Assembly: GCA_023246095.1 (NCBI GenBank) | Contig: JAHFJA010000002.1 | Coordinates: 1-39,488 of the forward strand | Source: a bacterium | GTDB lineage: Bacteria; Patescibacteriota; Patescibacteriia; JACQRZ01 | Length of the DNA: 39,488 nucleotides | Direction: 5' to 3' | In this document: positions 29,308-36,727 of the stretch, piece by piece | Position numbering within the stretch: the stretch's first letter is position 1 | Layout: the number at the start of each line of letters is the position of its first letter | Translations under genes and position numbers: made by a program | Notes under the pieces: generated by a model | The model's database searches: none | Told to the model about the DNA's origin: nothing | What the model saw: only the letters and a program-made list of their open reading frames with translations

Positions 29308-32300
29308 TTAGTAGAGAAGTGTACCAGCACTTACCGGCAATGAAACGGCTGGGATGTTGGCTGAAGAGCCACCCTGATCGTTCCATGCAACGTTGGTAAC
29401 ACGAAGCTGTCCAGGATCCTGGTTAGTTGTCGTGTTCCATGAAGTGGTTGCGGTATCTACTTCAAGAGTAAGGAGTCTCGCGGTGTTTGCTGAGATAGTG
29501 TATCCGAGAGGCAATGCCACAATGTACACGGTACTTTGTGTGCCACTTGGAACGCTACCAGCAGAACCTGGGGTGGTTCCAGTATTTACTGGAGTCCAAC
29601 CTGTGCGAGCTGCAGTACCCGTACCGGACTGAACAACACCGAGGAATCCGGAGTTAGTTCGGACCAATACGTAGGTGTTTGTTGCAGCTAAGCGAGCTGC
29701 AGTAACACCGGTCGTAGCTGTCTGAGCGTTGATAGCGGTTACAAGAGCATCCACCTGCAAAGTAGCAGAGGTACCACCAGTAACAGCACCAACTGAAGTC
29801 ACGTTAGCACCAGTACAGTTAAATACTGTTGCGCTTGGAGTAGCAAGTCCACAAATACTCAAGTCGCCACCAGTAATGTCATCACCAGGTGTGGTGAAGC
29901 CAGTAGGAGCGGCTGAAATGAATGCGGGGACAACTTGCGTGGTACCCGATGCGAGACCGGTATTTGCAAGAGTTGCTGTTGTACCGAGGAGGATGGTGAT
30001 ATCACCAGGAGTCCCGACGCGGTAGAGAGCGATCTTGTTACCAGCTGCGGTTGTACCAATGCGAGCTGCTGCTACACCTGTTGTACCTGTCTGAGCATTG
30101 ATAGCGGTCATCAAGTTTGTGGCTTGAGCGACTGCGCTACCACCACCAGTGACGGCACCAACGGAAGTACCGTTGATCATAAGGTCACCAGCGGTAATGT
30201 CGTTTGCAGGTGTTGCGAATGCACTGATGACGGCACCCAAAACACCATTTGCTGATGTCGCAGCGACACCGGCAACGGAATTGTTGATGTAGCCATTTGC
30301 ATCACGCACTCTCATGACGTTGTTGTTTCCAAGGGTTGCTGCTGAAGTAGCGGCAACAGCGAATTGATTTAACAAAGCGTCATAGTTGTTCGCTGCCTTG
30401 AATTCAAATACGGCGATCTGATCAGTCGTTGAGACTGTTCGGCTACCGCTTGGTGAACTACCATCCATCTTTGCAGAAAGGGTGGTTCGATAGATTGTCT
30501 GTGCGTTACCGTTGGTAGCTGCACCTGCTCCTGTAGCAGTGATGCTGATACCAGAACCGTTACCTGTTCCAACAATGTCACCATTAGCAGCTATACCAAA
30601 CGTGTGGGTAGAACCGGAGAATGATGCAGTGCTGTTGTAAGCGTTAATATCAGCAACAATCGTCAATGTTTTAACGGTGTTTGCTGAGATCATGTACGCT
30701 GGGCTGAACTGGAACGTTACGGTACCGGCTGACAATGAGTTCTGTGTACCGAGAAGTGTTTGACCATCAAACAACTTGATGTTGCTCAATGCCGCGTTTG
30801 CATTGTTACCTGTTTGAGTGTCGGTAACCTTAATGCTGGTGATATTTACACCTTCATTAGTACCGGTTGTCAATTTAAAGGTAGCAAATGTAATACCGGT
30901 GGCACCCATAGCAACGTTAGACGCTGCTACTGAACCTGAATCACCGGAAATTACCAATGTGCCACTACCAGCAACCGTTACTGATTGACCGGCAATGGTT
31001 CCGCCAGTGGCGGTGCGTGCGGTACCGGAAGTTGATCCGGAACCAACAGCACTTACCAAGCTAACGGCAGGAGCCAACGTTGCAGAAGCTGCACCTGATT
31101 GAATGTCTTCATAGACATCAACGGTAGCGGTTCCACCCACCGGAATGATGACGGGGGTACCACTGAAGGTGTAGTTAGTGCTGTTAGCCAATGAACCTTG
31201 TGTCAAGGTACCAAATGGTTGACCATTGACCTTCAATACCAAGTTCTGGAAGGTAGCAGCTGCGGTAGCGTTGGTCAATACTGTAATAGTAGAAACCGAG
31301 ATACCTTCACCGGCACCAGCGTTAAGCTGGAATGAACCAGTGCGTACTGCTGTTGCACCCTTAACATAGGTAACGTTACCCAATGCACCGGAAAGTCCTT
31401 GTACAAATGGGGTGGTTACGATGGTAAGTGTGCGACCTTGGTTCGCAGAAGTTGATACGTTTGAGAGAGAGATTGTTCCCTGACCATTGCTAGTACCAGC
31501 AGTCAAGTCAGCGCGGAAAGCGGTGACGTTGGCTCTGAAGGTGCTCAAAATGTCAGCCTTGAGAGACAATGTTCTCTTTGTGTTTGCAGGAATCACGTAG
31601 TTCAACTGTGAAGTTGAGCTACCGAAGGTGAAGGTAAATTTACCATTGACACCTGCGGTGTGAGCTGCGGCTGGAGCGACAGATACGGTGCTGTACGTAG
31701 TACCGAGCTGTACACCCTGATCATCAACCAAACGAAGGTTTGCGAAGTTCATATCATCACAACCAGCGAGAGTATCGGCGGTTGCTTCGATAGTACCACA
31801 TGCAGCTGCGTTGGTGTATTGAACCTGGGCAGGCATAGTGAAAAGTTTCACTGGCTCACCAGAAGCGGTTACATCAAAGTTTGCCAACACAACATTGTTG
31901 ATGCTCGTTGAGACGTTCCCTGTAGGTGAGTTTGGATTCGTGGTAACAACTACGTTACCTGCCAAAACACTGATAGCAGCTGCCTGCTGTACTGGGAATG
32001 AGCCACCACCGACAACCGTTGTGAGAATACCTGCGTTATACGTGGTATCCCAAGCGGTGATGTCGTAGTTGCGTTGAATGCTGATCGTGAAGCTGCGGTT
32101 TGGCGTACCAAGTACGTCAGCGTATACGCTCCATGTTACATTCTGACCGCTCGTGATGACGACTGGGTTAGCCGAAAGATCGACTACGATAGTGCCATCT
32201 GCGTTTGGCTTGAGTGTAGTAGCACCAACTTGAGTTGCACCATTCATGATCTTGATATTTGCAAGATCTTGAGCAGCGTTGATAGAACCAACCTCGGTCA

Positions 32301-33624
32301 AGATGACCTGGCTCAACTTAACATTACTGTTGTTGGCCTGAAGTTGGAATTGACCTACCAAAGCGTTGAGAGTACCAGCATTGAGTGAAGTTCCTACACT
32401 GATAGCTTGCGCTTGCAAGGTAGCGAGTGAAGGGTTCGACAATGTGGTGCTGTTCATGGTGTTACCCATGATTGGGAATGTACCGGCGACAGTGGAACCA
32501 GCGCTTGCGACTACATCAGTCATAGCATTGATACCAAAGGCGTAGGTCTTGTTGCTGGTCAAACCGGCACTCAAATCAGCTTTGATTGAGATGGATTTTG
32601 TTGTACCAGCTTTCACAGTGAAAAGACCTGCAGCGTTTGTGAAGGTTGCTTTTGCTTGTGAAAGAGTCGTGGAGAGTGCAAGACGGTTATCACCATCATA
32701 CAAATACACGTTGTTGATATCGTTATCAGAACCCAAACCTGTTCGTGTTACGGTCAAACCAGTAACAGCGACATCAGTAGCACCTGCAGCAAAGTTCACT
32801 TTCGTGAAGGTTGTGAATGCAGTACCGGCACCAACGTAAGTTGAAGCTGGAGTGGTGCTATCGAGGCTTACAGTTACATTACCAGCTGGCAATGTTGGTC
32901 CTGGGATTACAACAGCGGCGGTCTGAAACATCGAGATTGCTGTCTCCATGCCAGTAATAGCGGAGCCATTGGCAACGCTGTTAGCAATAGCATCAGATAC
33001 AGTGAGGATGAATTCAGAGCGGAAGTTGTTTGCAGAGAATGCATTGAAATCCGCGAACTTTCTCTTACCCAATGTATCTACATAGTAGATATCGGATGAA
33101 GAAGCTGTTTTGATGAGACTTCCTACTGAAGGGAGTGAGGTTGAAATCACACTTCCTGAAGTGTAGTTGGTGAAGAATGCATCAGATACGTCGTCGATTT
33201 GTTGATTCCAATTGTTACCATAGAGATCCTTTGCGATTTGCTCACTTTGGATAAAGCGGAGCTTACCACCTGGTTCTACTGCGTATACTTTTGGATCAGT
33301 GGTGATTTTTACAAGGCGTGTACCTGGGCGATAAGTGACATTGCCACCGATCGAGATTGCTGCGAGTTCTGAATCAGTGATTGTTTTCACTGATGAGAAG
33401 TTCGCGTACCAGGTCATGAACGTTTTTTGGTTAGGAAATACATAACGCTTTCCATCGGAACCGTAGTAGTATACGGCTGCACCAGAAGCCTTAATGAGAT
33501 CACCTGTCATCAATGTTGCTGCGCTTGCAGGAACAATTGAGGCAAGGCCCATGGACCAGAGTACAGTGGTTGCCACTACAGCCGTGGTAAGCGCTTGCTT
33601 ACCGGCTTTAATTACATTTGACAT
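29308..33624 (-). CDS. S-layer-type giant surface protein
   Basis: A 1438-residue exported protein. Signal peptide at about 1-35, ending ASA. Next is an N-terminal domain (36-215) with GDLIKASGAAVYYYGSDGKRY, FPNQKTFMTWYANF and VEPGGKLRFI, a block I recall from putative S-layer proteins of Patescibacteria. Several beta-sandwich modules of about 130-150 residues follow, each with a pattern like LSNIKLFDGQTLLGT and ISANTVKTLTIVADI. Two segments near 1175 and 1295 (TAINAQTGTTGV, TAINAQTATTGV) resemble the flagellin hook IN motif. No C-terminal anchor. AAAGGA precedes the ATG. It follows the ECF sigma/DUF5667 pair and is probably the main cell-surface coat. Confidence 0.88.
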   Translation of the reverse strand: MSNVIKAGKQALTTAVVATTVLWSMGLASIVPASAATLMTGDLIKASGAAVYYYGSDGKRYVFPNQKTFMTWYANFSSVKTITDSELAAISIGGNVTYRPGTRLVKITTDPKVYAVEPGGKLRFIQSEQIAKDLYGNNWNQQIDDVSDAFFTNYTSGSVISTSLPSVGSLIKTASSSDIYYVDTLGKRKFADFNAFSANNFRSEFILTVSDAIANSVANGSAITGMETAISMFQTAAVVIPGPTLPAGNVTVSLDSTTPASTYVGAGTAFTTFTKVNFAAGATDVAVTGLTVTRTGLGSDNDINNVYLYDGDNRLALSTTLSQAKATFTNAAGLFTVKAGTTKSISIKADLSAGLTSNKTYAFGINAMTDVVASAGSTVAGTFPIMGNTMNSTTLSNPSLATLQAQAISVGTSLNAGTLNALVGQFQLQANNSNVKLSQVILTEVGSINAAQDLANIKIMNGATQVGATTLKPNADGTIVVDLSANPVVITSGQNVTWSVYADVLGTPNRSFTISIQRNYDITAWDTTYNAGILTTVVGGGSFPVQQAAAISVLAGNVVVTTNPNSPTGNVSTSINNVVLANFDVTASGEPVKLFTMPAQVQYTNAAACGTIEATADTLAGCDDMNFANLRLVDDQGVQLGTTYSTVSVAPAAAHTAGVNGKFTFTFGSSTSQLNYVIPANTKRTLSLKADILSTFRANVTAFRADLTAGTSNGQGTISLSNVSTSANQGRTLTIVTTPFVQGLSGALGNVTYVKGATAVRTGSFQLNAGAGEGISVSTITVLTNATAAATFQNLVLKVNGQPFGTLTQGSLANSTNYTFSGTPVIIPVGGTATVDVYEDIQSGAASATLAPAVSLVSAVGSGSTSGTARTATGGTIAGQSVTVAGSGTLVISGDSGSVAASNVAMGATGITFATFKLTTGTNEGVNITSIKVTDTQTGNNANAALSNIKLFDGQTLLGTQNSLSAGTVTFQFSPAYMISANTVKTLTIVADINAYNSTASFSGSTHTFGIAANGDIVGTGNGSGISITATGAGAATNGNAQTIYRTTLSAKMDGSSPSGSRTVSTTDQIAVFEFKAANNYDALLNQFAVAATSAATLGNNNVMRVRDANGYINNSVAGVAATSANGVLGAVISAFATPANDITAGDLMINGTSVGAVTGGGSAVAQATNLMTAINAQTGTTGVAAARIGTTAAGNKIALYRVGTPGDITILLGTTATLANTGLASGTTQVVPAFISAAPTGFTTPGDDITGGDLSICGLATPSATVFNCTGANVTSVGAVTGGTSATLQVDALVTAINAQTATTGVTAARLAATNTYVLVRTNSGFLGVVQSGTGTAARTGWTPVNTGTTPGSAGSVPSGTQSTVYIVALPLGYTISANTARLLTLEVDTATTSWNTTTNQDPGQLRVTNVAWNDQGGSSANIPAVSLPVSAGTLLY

Positions 33625-33780
33625 AAGTCAGTCCTTTCGTAGTTAATATTAGATTGACCAACCCCAGCGGCTCGCGACTCCCCCTCGCGGGGGAACGAAC
33701 TCGACCTTTTCTGAAGCGGACTAGGCGGAGGTCCTGGATTGAGTTTCCTCTCTCCAGCTCTCCGCATAGATTTTAAACAA
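33625..33780 (-). promoter_or_regulatory. GC-rich structured leader of the S-layer gene
   Basis: The 166-nt spacer holds a marked GC-rich block (about 33664-33766). Two hairpins are clear: GCGGAG/CTCCGC enclosing CTGGA/TCCAG (33725-33765), and CCCCC TCGC GGGGG (33680-33693). Neither is followed by a T tract on the minus strand, so they are not simple terminators. They probably form a stable 5' leader of the S-layer mRNA. No convincing sigma70 promoter is visible inside the spacer. Confidence 0.55.
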
Positions 33781-33790
33781 TAGGGAGTTT

Positions 33791-34972
33791 TTATTTTTTC
33801 ACCTCTGGTGAGGCGGGTGGAGCAGGGGGCGTAGTGGATTTTTCACTATCGTCTTGCTTTTCAGGAGGAGGTGTTTTTGTTTCGTCTTTTTTATCTGCCG
33901 TATCTTTTACATCAGCGTCATTTGGATCTGAACTCGTTAGGTCAGGAATCGTGACTTTGATCGCGTCAGCGCTTTCTTGCGCATCGACGACCAACTCATA
34001 TGATTCATCCAAACTTGTCAGTGCAAGAGATAGGTCATTTTTTTCAAGGGATTTCTTTGCGGTCTGCAATTTCTCGGTTGCTTGTTTAGAGTCTTTTGTT
34101 GCTTTAGCTACCTGGTCCGTATCAACCCCTTTCGTCTCAGCCGCAATTTTCACTACTTGATTAACGTCTTTAACATTTTCTTCCGCCTGCTTGATGCGGT
34201 CTTGTATATTGTTCTTTATATCATCCGGCGCTTTACTACTGCCATTCTTCTCGATGACCACCGCAAGTGCTTTAGTGGTAGTCGTATTTGCCTGTGCAAG
34301 AGCTTCCTTTACTTTCGGTGCTGTATCTTGCTTTACTGGCTTAGAAAGAGTTTGTTTGGTTTTGGAAAGGGCTTCACTGACTCGAACTGCTTTCTGACTT
34401 ACGGTATTGGCGACTTGTGCAACGCGTTGGGGATCCTGACTACCCTTTATATCGTCCAAATGCTGTCCTGCGCTGTTGAGAGTGGCGGTTACGTCGCTCA
34501 CCAACGATTCTACTTTTTGCGCTTTTTCTTCATCACTGATTGGTTGTTTTGAAATGGCATCTAATTCTTCAAGGCGGGTTTCTACCAACTGCATCTGCAA
34601 TTCTGCTTTTTGATCGGGTGAAGCAATCGCTACTTGAAAGTTTTCGCTCGTCTTCTTTACGCTATAGAGCGTGTCGCCGGGAAGGCTGTGACGCGCACCC
34701 AATGTGGCAACCGATCCTCCAAAGAGAAGTGTCAGTGCGGTCAGTGCCATAGCGGCAGGGTGAGCGACGACTGCGCCGAGTGTATATTGATAGGCGCCCG
34801 ACATTACGGTACGCGTATACACGACAATTCCTGCGAACGCTCCTGGTCGTGATGTCCCCATGCCTTGAGACGCCACTTGAGAAAGCAACAGCTCCTTGCA
34901 AGAAGCTTGCCACTCACTGCGGGGAGTAATGCGTTGCAGTGTCTTTAATTGTTTAATAATCTTACGGCTCAT
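33791..34972 (-). CDS. DUF5667-like one-TM protein, probable anti-sigma/surface sensor
   Basis: A 393-residue protein: a cytoplasmic N-terminal part of about 65 residues (MSRKIIKQLKTLQRITPRSEW...), one TM helix at about 67-93 (HPAAMALTALTLLFGGSVATLGA), then LPGDTLYSVKKTSENFQVAIA and LQMQLVETRLEELDAI, the signature of DUF5667 proteins. A long helical Lys/Ala/Gln-rich extracellular region and a Pro/Lys/Asp tail follow. It lies 13 nt after an ECF sigma gene. That arrangement is typical of a membrane anti-sigma factor. The link to the S-layer gene downstream is inferred from order. Confidence 0.88.
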   Translation of the reverse strand: MSRKIIKQLKTLQRITPRSEWQASCKELLLSQVASQGMGTSRPGAFAGIVVYTRTVMSGAYQYTLGAVVAHPAAMALTALTLLFGGSVATLGARHSLPGDTLYSVKKTSENFQVAIASPDQKAELQMQLVETRLEELDAISKQPISDEEKAQKVESLVSDVTATLNSAGQHLDDIKGSQDPQRVAQVANTVSQKAVRVSEALSKTKQTLSKPVKQDTAPKVKEALAQANTTTTKALAVVIEKNGSSKAPDDIKNNIQDRIKQAEENVKDVNQVVKIAAETKGVDTDQVAKATKDSKQATEKLQTAKKSLEKNDLSLALTSLDESYELVVDAQESADAIKVTIPDLTSSDPNDADVKDTADKKDETKTPPPEKQDDSEKSTTPPAPPASPEVKK

Positions 34973-34985
34973 AATATATGAAAAA

Positions 34986-35546
34986 CTATGTGTGCGGTTT
35001 CAGTTTGCCTTTAAGGGCTTTGATACCCCGATGAAGCATAACCCGTACTGCCCCCGGCGATCGTTCAACGACTTTTGCGATCTCTTTGAGGGATAGGTCG
35101 TTGAGGTAATGAAGGATAATGATTTCACGATAGGTATCTTTGAGCTCGCGTAATGCTTTCTCAACCAATACCATCTCAGATTTCAAAACCATCTTTTCCT
35201 CCAGGGTGAGGTCAACACGATCAGCGATCACGATTTCATTTTCACTCTCGTCCAATGAATCGACGATCATCTTCCCCCTCTTTCGGTAAAAATCGACGAC
35301 GACGTTACGCGCGATCTTATAGATCACCGCCTGCAGGTTGCCAATCGCCCGCGCTTCCTTTATATACTGCCACGTTTTTAAAAATGTTTCGGAAGTCAAA
35401 TCTTCCGCATCACTGGCGGACGGAACCTTAAGATACACAAACCGATATACCTTTTGGACGTAATGATCGTACAAAGGAGCAAAACTTTCGGTATGTCCTC
35501 GCTTTATTTGATAAATGAGGATTTGTTCATTGAGGTACCCACGCAT
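34986..35546 (-). CDS. ECF-family RNA polymerase sigma factor
   Basis: A 186-residue sigma70-family ECF factor. Region 2 includes FAPLYDHYVQKVYRFVYLKV and DAEDLTSETFLKTWQYI (2.2-2.4, -10 recognition). Region 4 is LRELKDTYREIIILHYLNDLSLKEIAKVVERSPGAVR (helix-turn-helix for the -35). No region 1 or 3, as expected. It is transcribed ahead of the DUF5667-like partner and the S-layer gene. An ECF-type promoter lies directly upstream, which suggests autoregulation. The leader would be only about 10 nt, and no SD is seen. Confidence 0.95.
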   Translation of the reverse strand: MRGYLNEQILIYQIKRGHTESFAPLYDHYVQKVYRFVYLKVPSASDAEDLTSETFLKTWQYIKEARAIGNLQAVIYKIARNVVVDFYRKRGKMIVDSLDESENEIVIADRVDLTLEEKMVLKSEMVLVEKALRELKDTYREIIILHYLNDLSLKEIAKVVERSPGAVRVMLHRGIKALKGKLKPHT

Positions 35547-35564
35547 GTGAGTGATGCTATATTA

Positions 35565-35591
35565 GACGTACGTTCAAGCCAAAACGTTACA
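35565..35591 (-). promoter_or_regulatory. ECF-type promoter of the sigma factor gene
   Basis: Minus-strand TGTAAC (35591-35586), 17-nt spacer, CGTC (35568-35565). This matches the AAC / CGTC pattern of ECF promoters such as B. subtilis SigX and SigM sites. No comparable sigma70 promoter is seen. It would place the RNA start just before the ATG. Confidence 0.55.
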
Positions 35592-35642
35592 GTCGAATTA
35601 ATACAATAGGGCTAAGCTACCATAAAACCCTTAGAAAGGGAA

Positions 35643-35653
35643 GGGTCAGACCC
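35643..35653. repeat. Short palindrome GGGTCAGACCC
   Basis: An 11-nt perfect palindrome around a central A (with an extra C after it). The motif resembles the core of GGGTCAGACCCC-type repeats I recall as abundant in many environmental genomes. Only one copy was found in this window by eye, so its role is open. Confidence 0.35.
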
Positions 35654-35659
35654 CATTAG

Positions 35660-35683
35660 AAAAAAGCCCCACTACAGGGCTTT
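35660..35683 (-). terminator. Terminator after the AI-2E-family gene
   Basis: AAAGCCC pairs with GGGCTTT around a 7-nt loop. Six T follow on the minus strand, 19 nt after the stop of the permease gene. Confidence 0.8.
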
Positions 35684-35701
35684 CCTTTTATATATAGTCT
35701 T

Positions 35702-36727
35702 TTATGTCTTTTCACTCTTCTCTGTCTCCCCAAAAAAGTCTGAAACAATGACACCCAGCGCAGTTGTCACAGGAATTGCCAACAAAGCACCGACAATCCC
35801 TGCCAGTTTTGCCCCTATCAAGAGAGCAATGATACTGATGAGGGGGTTAAGCCCCACCGTATGTTGCATGACTTTGGGTACCAAAAGGTCATTTTCCAGC
35901 CTTTGAATCACTAAATAAAGGATTATCACCCATAACGCGAGCCACGGTGATTGGTTGAGAGCAATAAACGCTGCAGGGACCGCTCCCACAATAGGCCCAA
36001 TAACTGGCACAAATTCAGTGAGACCGGCCACCATAGCCAAGGTAAGTGCGTAATCCACCCCCAAAATCGTCAATCCGACATAACTCAACACAAATATGAT
36101 AAAGCTGAGAATCAATTGAGCTCGAAGCCATTTCCCAATCTGCTGTTGAATTCGGGTAATGAGGTGGTTAACATATTCCTCATAGCGCTTTGGCATAACA
36201 AAGGTGAGAGCCCTCTGGATCACGTGTTCCTGAGAAGTCATATAGAAGCTCAACACGATCACCACAGACAAAGCGACGACCCCACCGATAACATCAAAAA
36301 TTTTCAAAAAGAGACCACTCGCAAAGGTCAATAACCCTGACTCCATCGCTGAGAGACCTCTCTTTATCTGTTCGATAAGATTGGCATCCAGTGCCTGGCT
36401 TTGAAAACCTCGGACAATAGCGAGTAAGCGTTCTGAATATACAGGGAAATTAAGAGCCAGCTGACTCACCTGATCAACTAAAGCCGGTATCAACAAAAAC
36501 AACATGAGGCCGACAACTCCCAGTATAGCTAAATAGATGAGAAGGATACCTACCACGCGCGGCACTTTTCGACGCTCCATTGCATTGACTGAAGGCGAAA
36601 GTGCTGATGACACAATAAACGCAACAAACAACAATGCGAGGACGTCGCTGATGAGATACAGGAACCACAAGGCAGCCATAATCACCAATACCTTGATGAA
36701 GGTTTGCGTCGAGACGTTTATATTCAT
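35702..36727 (-). CDS. AI-2E transporter family (PerM-like) membrane permease
   Basis: A 341-residue membrane protein from the ATG at 36727 (MNINVSTQTFIKVLV). The frame is open to 36871, but that part lacks family similarity; MASPRET at 36751 is an alternative. About seven to eight TM helices. Family features: the N-terminal ALLFVAFIVSSALSPSVNAMERRKVPR, the LTEFVPVIGPIVGAVPAAFIAL block and the C-terminal PLISIIALLIGAKLAGIVGALLAIPV. Members export small molecules or act in Na+/H+ exchange; the substrate is unknown here. It is divergent from smpB and has its own terminator. Confidence 0.92.
   Translation of the reverse strand: MNINVSTQTFIKVLVIMAALWFLYLISDVLALLFVAFIVSSALSPSVNAMERRKVPRVVGILLIYLAILGVVGLMLFLLIPALVDQVSQLALNFPVYSERLLAIVRGFQSQALDANLIEQIKRGLSAMESGLLTFASGLFLKIFDVIGGVVALSVVIVLSFYMTSQEHVIQRALTFVMPKRYEEYVNHLITRIQQQIGKWLRAQLILSFIIFVLSYVGLTILGVDYALTLAMVAGLTEFVPVIGPIVGAVPAAFIALNQSPWLALWVIILYLVIQRLENDLLVPKVMQHTVGLNPLISIIALLIGAKLAGIVGALLAIPVTTALGVIVSDFFGETEKSEKT

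Follow-up and report, generated by a model that had tools for sequence, protein, structure and literature searches.

Which regulator governs the giant surface protein of a bacterium whose genome comprises only 0.99 Mb? The question is raised by a locus of the window, that is, the whole stretch of 39,488 nucleotides analysed here, which is contig 18 of the source genome. The uncultured bacteria concerned belong to the Patescibacteria, which possess tiny genomes and for which few regulators are known. A sequence-only reading had described the locus as a self-regulated ECF sigma factor module that controls coat synthesis. The comparison with related genomes leads to the interpretation, with a probability of roughly 0.78, that the locus forms a regulon dedicated to the surface coat and consisting of a sigma factor, a putative inhibitor of the DUF5667 family, a coat gene and a conserved hairpin in the leader of the coat mRNA.

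The three-gene order recurs throughout the class

All three genes are located on the minus strand of the window. The gene of an ECF sigma factor (P0001, 186 aa; 34986..35546) is followed after 13 nt by that of a DUF5667 membrane protein (P0002, 393 aa; 33791..34972), a putative anti-sigma factor. After another 166 nt follows the coat gene (29308..33624), which encodes a giant S-layer-type surface protein of 1438 aa (P0003), characterized by its composition and by orthologues of its conserved N-terminal repeat domain slN. A terminator-like hairpin (35663..35683), identified by a terminator scan and from the sequence, lies between the sigma operon and the upstream gene of an AI-2E transporter. 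The same scan of the window detected no terminator-like site between the DUF5667 and the coat gene on the minus strand. The coordinates and features previously listed for the locus were correct when re-read from the sequence, the Pfam matches and the folding.

For a comparison of gene order, the sigma factor was searched in 95 relatives and in public genomes, and 40 regions were extracted. The named relatives found in public genomes are Falkowbacteria, Buchananbacteria and other Patescibacteria. Leaving aside loci interrupted by a contig end, the sigma gene is followed by a DUF5667 gene and a gene for a giant slN protein in essentially all orthologous loci, and within the class this order was found in dozens of lineages at family level. 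The sequence-only reading had relied on the sigma and DUF5667 genes being neighbours in relatives as well, and this adjacency is conserved. One locus (L064) contains an additional gene between the two, and the distant sigma genes L086-L088 occur in a different context.

The sigma factor and its promoter

The sigma protein matches the Pfam domains sigma70_r2 (4.8e-13) and r4_2 (1.3e-15), and a profile search found no second match to r4_2 (PF08281) in its own genome. According to Pfam and NCBIfam it consists of the sigma2 and sigma4 domains only, and its closest solved structures are SigW and others. An ECF-type promoter, TGTAAC-N17-CGTC, was identified by pattern match and conservation at 35565..35591 on the minus strand. 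The motif TGTAAC-N15..18-CGTC or a close variant is present in 44 of 45 orthologous loci, the one without being L080, and contains the AAC -35 and CGT -10 boxes that are among the hallmarks of ECF promoters (PMC8103513). A strict version, TGTAAC-N15..17-CG[TA]C, occurs in 25 of the 45 upstream regions of 120 nt, compared to 0.013 expected from shuffled sequences.

The promoter is located just 5' of the sigma gene in 34 of the 45 loci and between the sigma and the DUF5667 gene in ten, among which L079 was counted. In 25 of 32 measurable loci, CGTC precedes the sigma ATG by exactly 7 nt; in the window and the sister genome this gap is 18 nt. At a distance of 7 nt, transcription is expected to begin at the ATG or immediately beside it, and the sigma mRNA of these loci is likely leaderless. 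Six of nine members of the family to which the window belongs lack the motif 5' of the sigma gene and have it in the gap 3' of this gene instead; several members contain TTGACC-17-TATACT-like sites 5' of the sigma gene, as read by eye. According to the sigma tree, the promoter shifted at least three times, most simply five times, and stayed upstream of the DUF5667 gene. As judged from comparative placement, it almost always precedes the DUF5667 and surface-protein genes.

Since the motif has moved 3' of the sigma gene in part of the loci, autoregulation via TGTAAC-17-CGTC, as postulated by the sequence-only reading, would be common but not universal: it is consistent with the 34 loci that include the window, and in the other ten the promoter lies 3' of the sigma gene. 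Likewise, the expected conservation of the motif upstream of sigma orthologues holds class-wide but fails in the six family members. The comparative placement supports the notion that TGTAAC/CGTC is the sigma factor's own promoter. A sigma70 consensus scan of positions 33500-36000 gave no match, in agreement with the earlier statement that no sigma70 promoter is visible at the sigma gene. The proposed scan of the own genome for further carriers yielded, besides the locus, only two exact matches of TGTAAC-N16..18-CGTC, both inside genes; the C24 matches were dismissed as targets for this reason. In L062 and L064, which lack an ECF promoter before the sigma gene, a short hairpin with a T-rich end lies directly 5' of the sigma ATG and is perhaps an attenuator.

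The system resembles the pairs SigW-RsiW and RpoE-RseA in the restriction to sigma2 and sigma4, the AAC/CGT boxes, the adjoining membrane protein as putative inhibitor and the presumably frequent autoregulation, all of them listed as hallmarks of such systems (PMC8103513). It differs in that the putative inhibitor is a DUF5667 protein without a recognised anti-sigma domain, in a regulon that seems confined to the own locus and the coat gene, in a promoter that shifts between the sigma and the DUF5667 gene among relatives, and in a sigma mRNA that is probably leaderless.

A conserved RNA element in the leader of the coat gene

Bacterial S-layer mRNAs carry structured 5' leaders. For the 169-nt coat leader of the window, folding gave -57.6 kcal/mol (z = -2.1) and two strong hairpins, as had been noted for this GC-rich region, and structure is found in coat leaders throughout the class. 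The first hairpin, at 33658..33719 on the minus strand, consists of an outer stem CCGCUUCAG/CUGGGG-U-UGG, a bulge AAAAGGUCGA and an inner hairpin. The second (33720..33772, same strand; GCGGAG..CUGGA..UCCAG..CUCCGC), which was deduced from fold prediction, lies upstream of it.

A nine-base motif, AAAGGTCGA, is common to the coat leaders of the class, and the arms on either side of it pair with each other. The resulting architecture comprises an outer stem of about 9 bp, a 5' bulge AAAGGUCGA and an inner hairpin, usually with no gap on the 3' side. Native arms formed 8.5 enclosing pairs, compared to 5.2 ± 0.67 for arms swapped between genomes, and the corresponding energies were -14.9 and -11.4 ± 0.33. 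A covariance model from 16 seeds displayed covariation at 12 of 12 pairs. Note that the RNA alignments were fitted to the structure, and that in the seed alignment A4 two missing bases were represented by N and long inner loops, in the seed only, were shortened to 5+5 bases. In a search of 286 genomes, the model matched once in each of 25, and 21 of these matches lie between DUF5667 and coat genes; sensitivity was low, as few candidates were scored per genome in the large-run searches. For held-out genomes, 14 of 18 matches have this location. In a set of mostly held-out copies, 91.6% of the cells were paired, versus 54.6% in shuffles. The class-wide motif therefore combines the covariation in all helices and the genomic specificity that are characteristic of a structured cis-acting RNA.

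The element of the window is a divergent family variant of this motif, as indicated by its place, its architecture and its core (33701-33709), which is exact and unique in the window. Compared to the sister genome it has a similar fold with compensatory changes. Scored with the general model R2, it reached 5.8 bits, which is not above background, and considered by itself its fold is unremarkable (z = -1.5).

A known riboswitch or leader identity was discarded, as no family of Rfam 15 matches the coat leader. A leader peptide starting after the AAAGG of the bulge was discarded as well, since leaders inspected by eye contained no conserved downstream start codon. Conservation extends beyond AAAGG into UCGA, and a plain Shine-Dalgarno standby site is therefore not a sufficient explanation. 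The element resembles the leaders of bacterial S-layer mRNAs in that it belongs to a coat mRNA that is presumably very abundant, but it differs by a nearly invariant AAAGGUCGA bulge that is common to the whole class and by having no Rfam family. A rather unlikely alternative, though the strongest that we considered, is that the hairpin, as a stable 5' structure without specificity, merely shields an abundant mRNA and that its bulge has no partner. The freely varying stem sequences and the presumed abundance of the mRNA are compatible with this view; mere stability would not, however, require nine bulge bases to stay nearly invariant across the class while the stems vary.

The DUF5667 protein as putative anti-sigma factor

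The protein encoded between the sigma and the coat gene matches DUF5667 (Pfam, 9.5e-10), is the sole match to this family that a profile search found in its genome, and contains one hydrophobic helix. An AlphaFold2 model (mean pLDDT 79) consists of short N-terminal helices (residues 3-14 and 19-35), a transmembrane helix (66-94), an extracytoplasmic helical domain and an acidic, proline-rich tail; local confidence at the N-terminal helices and the transmembrane segment is only about 51-79. The N-terminus is conserved over 28 orthologues, and its residues P17 and W21 hardly vary. A short cytoplasmic segment of two helices is found in class II anti-sigma factors such as CnrY (PMC7406223), and the model shows the same layout, a short two-helix segment ahead of a single transmembrane helix. 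Unlike CnrY-type proteins, the DUF5667 protein carries an extracytoplasmic DUF5667 helical domain, and there is no sequence match between them. Neither Pfam nor NCBIfam gave a match to a class I (ZAS-type) anti-sigma domain, a fold search in the PDB gave no match under 1e-3, and a search of a literature library for DUF5667 found no paper.

Across the phylum, DUF5667 was detected in 112 of 240 genomes, in some cases beside an ECF sigma gene. It is plausible to assume that the DUF5667 protein inhibits the sigma factor. The competing view, which we consider improbable, is that it is an effector made together with the coat, for example an anchoring or assembly protein with no connection to the sigma factor beyond the common operon. 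Such a role would be in line with the lack of a recognised anti-sigma domain and with the occurrence of DUF5667 in other Patescibacteria, where it is also part of ORFs longer than 1000 aa and where some copies have no sigma neighbour that could be detected. It is opposed by the conserved class II layout and by the DUF5667 genes that adjoin ECF sigma genes outside the class as well.

The coat gene as a probable target of the sigma factor

No direct ECF promoter was found before the coat gene of the window. In three loci (L041, L048, L085), a second copy of the promoter lies directly in front of the coat gene. In family f131, which is outside the class, the coat gene is not linked to the sigma-DUF5667 pair; the promoter is nevertheless present 165-514 nt upstream of the coat gene in six of six genomes. 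In the same six genomes, the separate pair also has the promoter at the sigma gene, about 7 nt before the ATG. The common promoter is an independent indication that the sigma factor drives the coat gene. These comparisons support the coat gene as a sigma target and with it the earlier assumption that the sigma circuit controls the coat gene; a vegetative promoter may additionally serve it. The least probable alternative, that control by the sigma factor is confined to its own gene and that of the anti-sigma factor and that the coat gene is a conserved neighbour expressed constitutively from its own vegetative promoter, is suggested by the absence of an own ECF promoter from most coat genes of the class and by a spacing of usually about 110-580 nt between DUF5667 and coat gene, but it conflicts with the second promoters, the f131 genomes and the lack of a terminator-like site in the window.

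A wide ECF regulon was discarded. Off-locus sites TGTAAC-N16-CGTCT numbered about 20 among the matches listed for the 95 genomes, versus about 44 for a reversed-pattern control, and thus no wider regulon is visible with this exact consensus, which could overlook degenerate members.

Proposed mechanism

Within the proposed coat regulon, the N-terminal two-helix segment of the membrane-bound DUF5667 protein would hold the ECF sigma factor, with the helical domain facing outward, until an envelope or coat signal frees it. The released sigma factor would then transcribe its own gene from TGTAAC-N16/17-CGTC, often as a leaderless mRNA, and the DUF5667 gene, which would establish a negative feedback. 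The coat gene would be reached by read-through or from a second promoter copy, in accordance with the comparative placement of these promoters. On the coat mRNA, the hairpin with its exposed AAAGGUCGA bulge, a structure deduced by comparison, would act post-transcriptionally, most likely on stability or translation. The available data partly support the interpretation of the sequence-only reading; the circuit is best seen as a variant of the known sigma/anti-sigma type, and the RNA motif as a new candidate.

More speculatively, the locus could be a surface-coat homeostat, in which a coat-devoted sigma factor is combined with a DUF5667 protein that reads the state of the coat and with a AAAGGUCGA bulge that a dedicated protein or ligand recognizes and that gates translation or stability of the coat mRNA. 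If true, the main surface protein of reduced bacteria would be under two-layer feedback throughout the lineage. Seemingly in the service of a single coat gene, the sigma factor is retained class-wide and, in another lineage, in an unlinked pair, which suggests that coat control is central to this lifestyle. The analysis provides a defined promoter, suggests a function for DUF5667 and adds a new RNA motif that can be tested.

The coat protein and related elements

The coat protein is rich in T, A, G and S, poor in K and C, and has an N-terminus that resembles a signal peptide; orthologues of slN exist in nearly all genomes of the class in the phylum sample. Size, composition, the signal-peptide-like start and conservation suggest that it forms an S-layer. 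Foldseek matched its N-terminal repeats (about 40-235 aa of the protein encoded at 29311-33624) to the repeat domain of EccB from ESX secretion (E 1.9e-4), but the TM-score is only about 0.2 over the whole chain and no ESX context was seen; the two may share an envelope-binding repeat. A second large protein of the own genome (1511-aa ORF; G000:C8:8073-8453, L152) contains a coat-type N-terminal repeat domain, and other genomes of the class have up to 11 matches to such domains.

Two related observations concern the leader. The f131 loci L171-L173 and L175-L177 contain a different, sequence-conserved hairpin, GATTGATTGTCTCATATGAAYAATTAATC, within about 75 nt 5' of the coat-gene ATG, which possibly takes the role of the AAAGGUCGA element in this lineage. 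Hairpins of the AAAGGTCGA type also precede genes of small exported proteins by about 50 nt in two loci, L115 and L117 (close to position 1500 on the hit strand), and the RNA motif may thus not be limited to coat genes.
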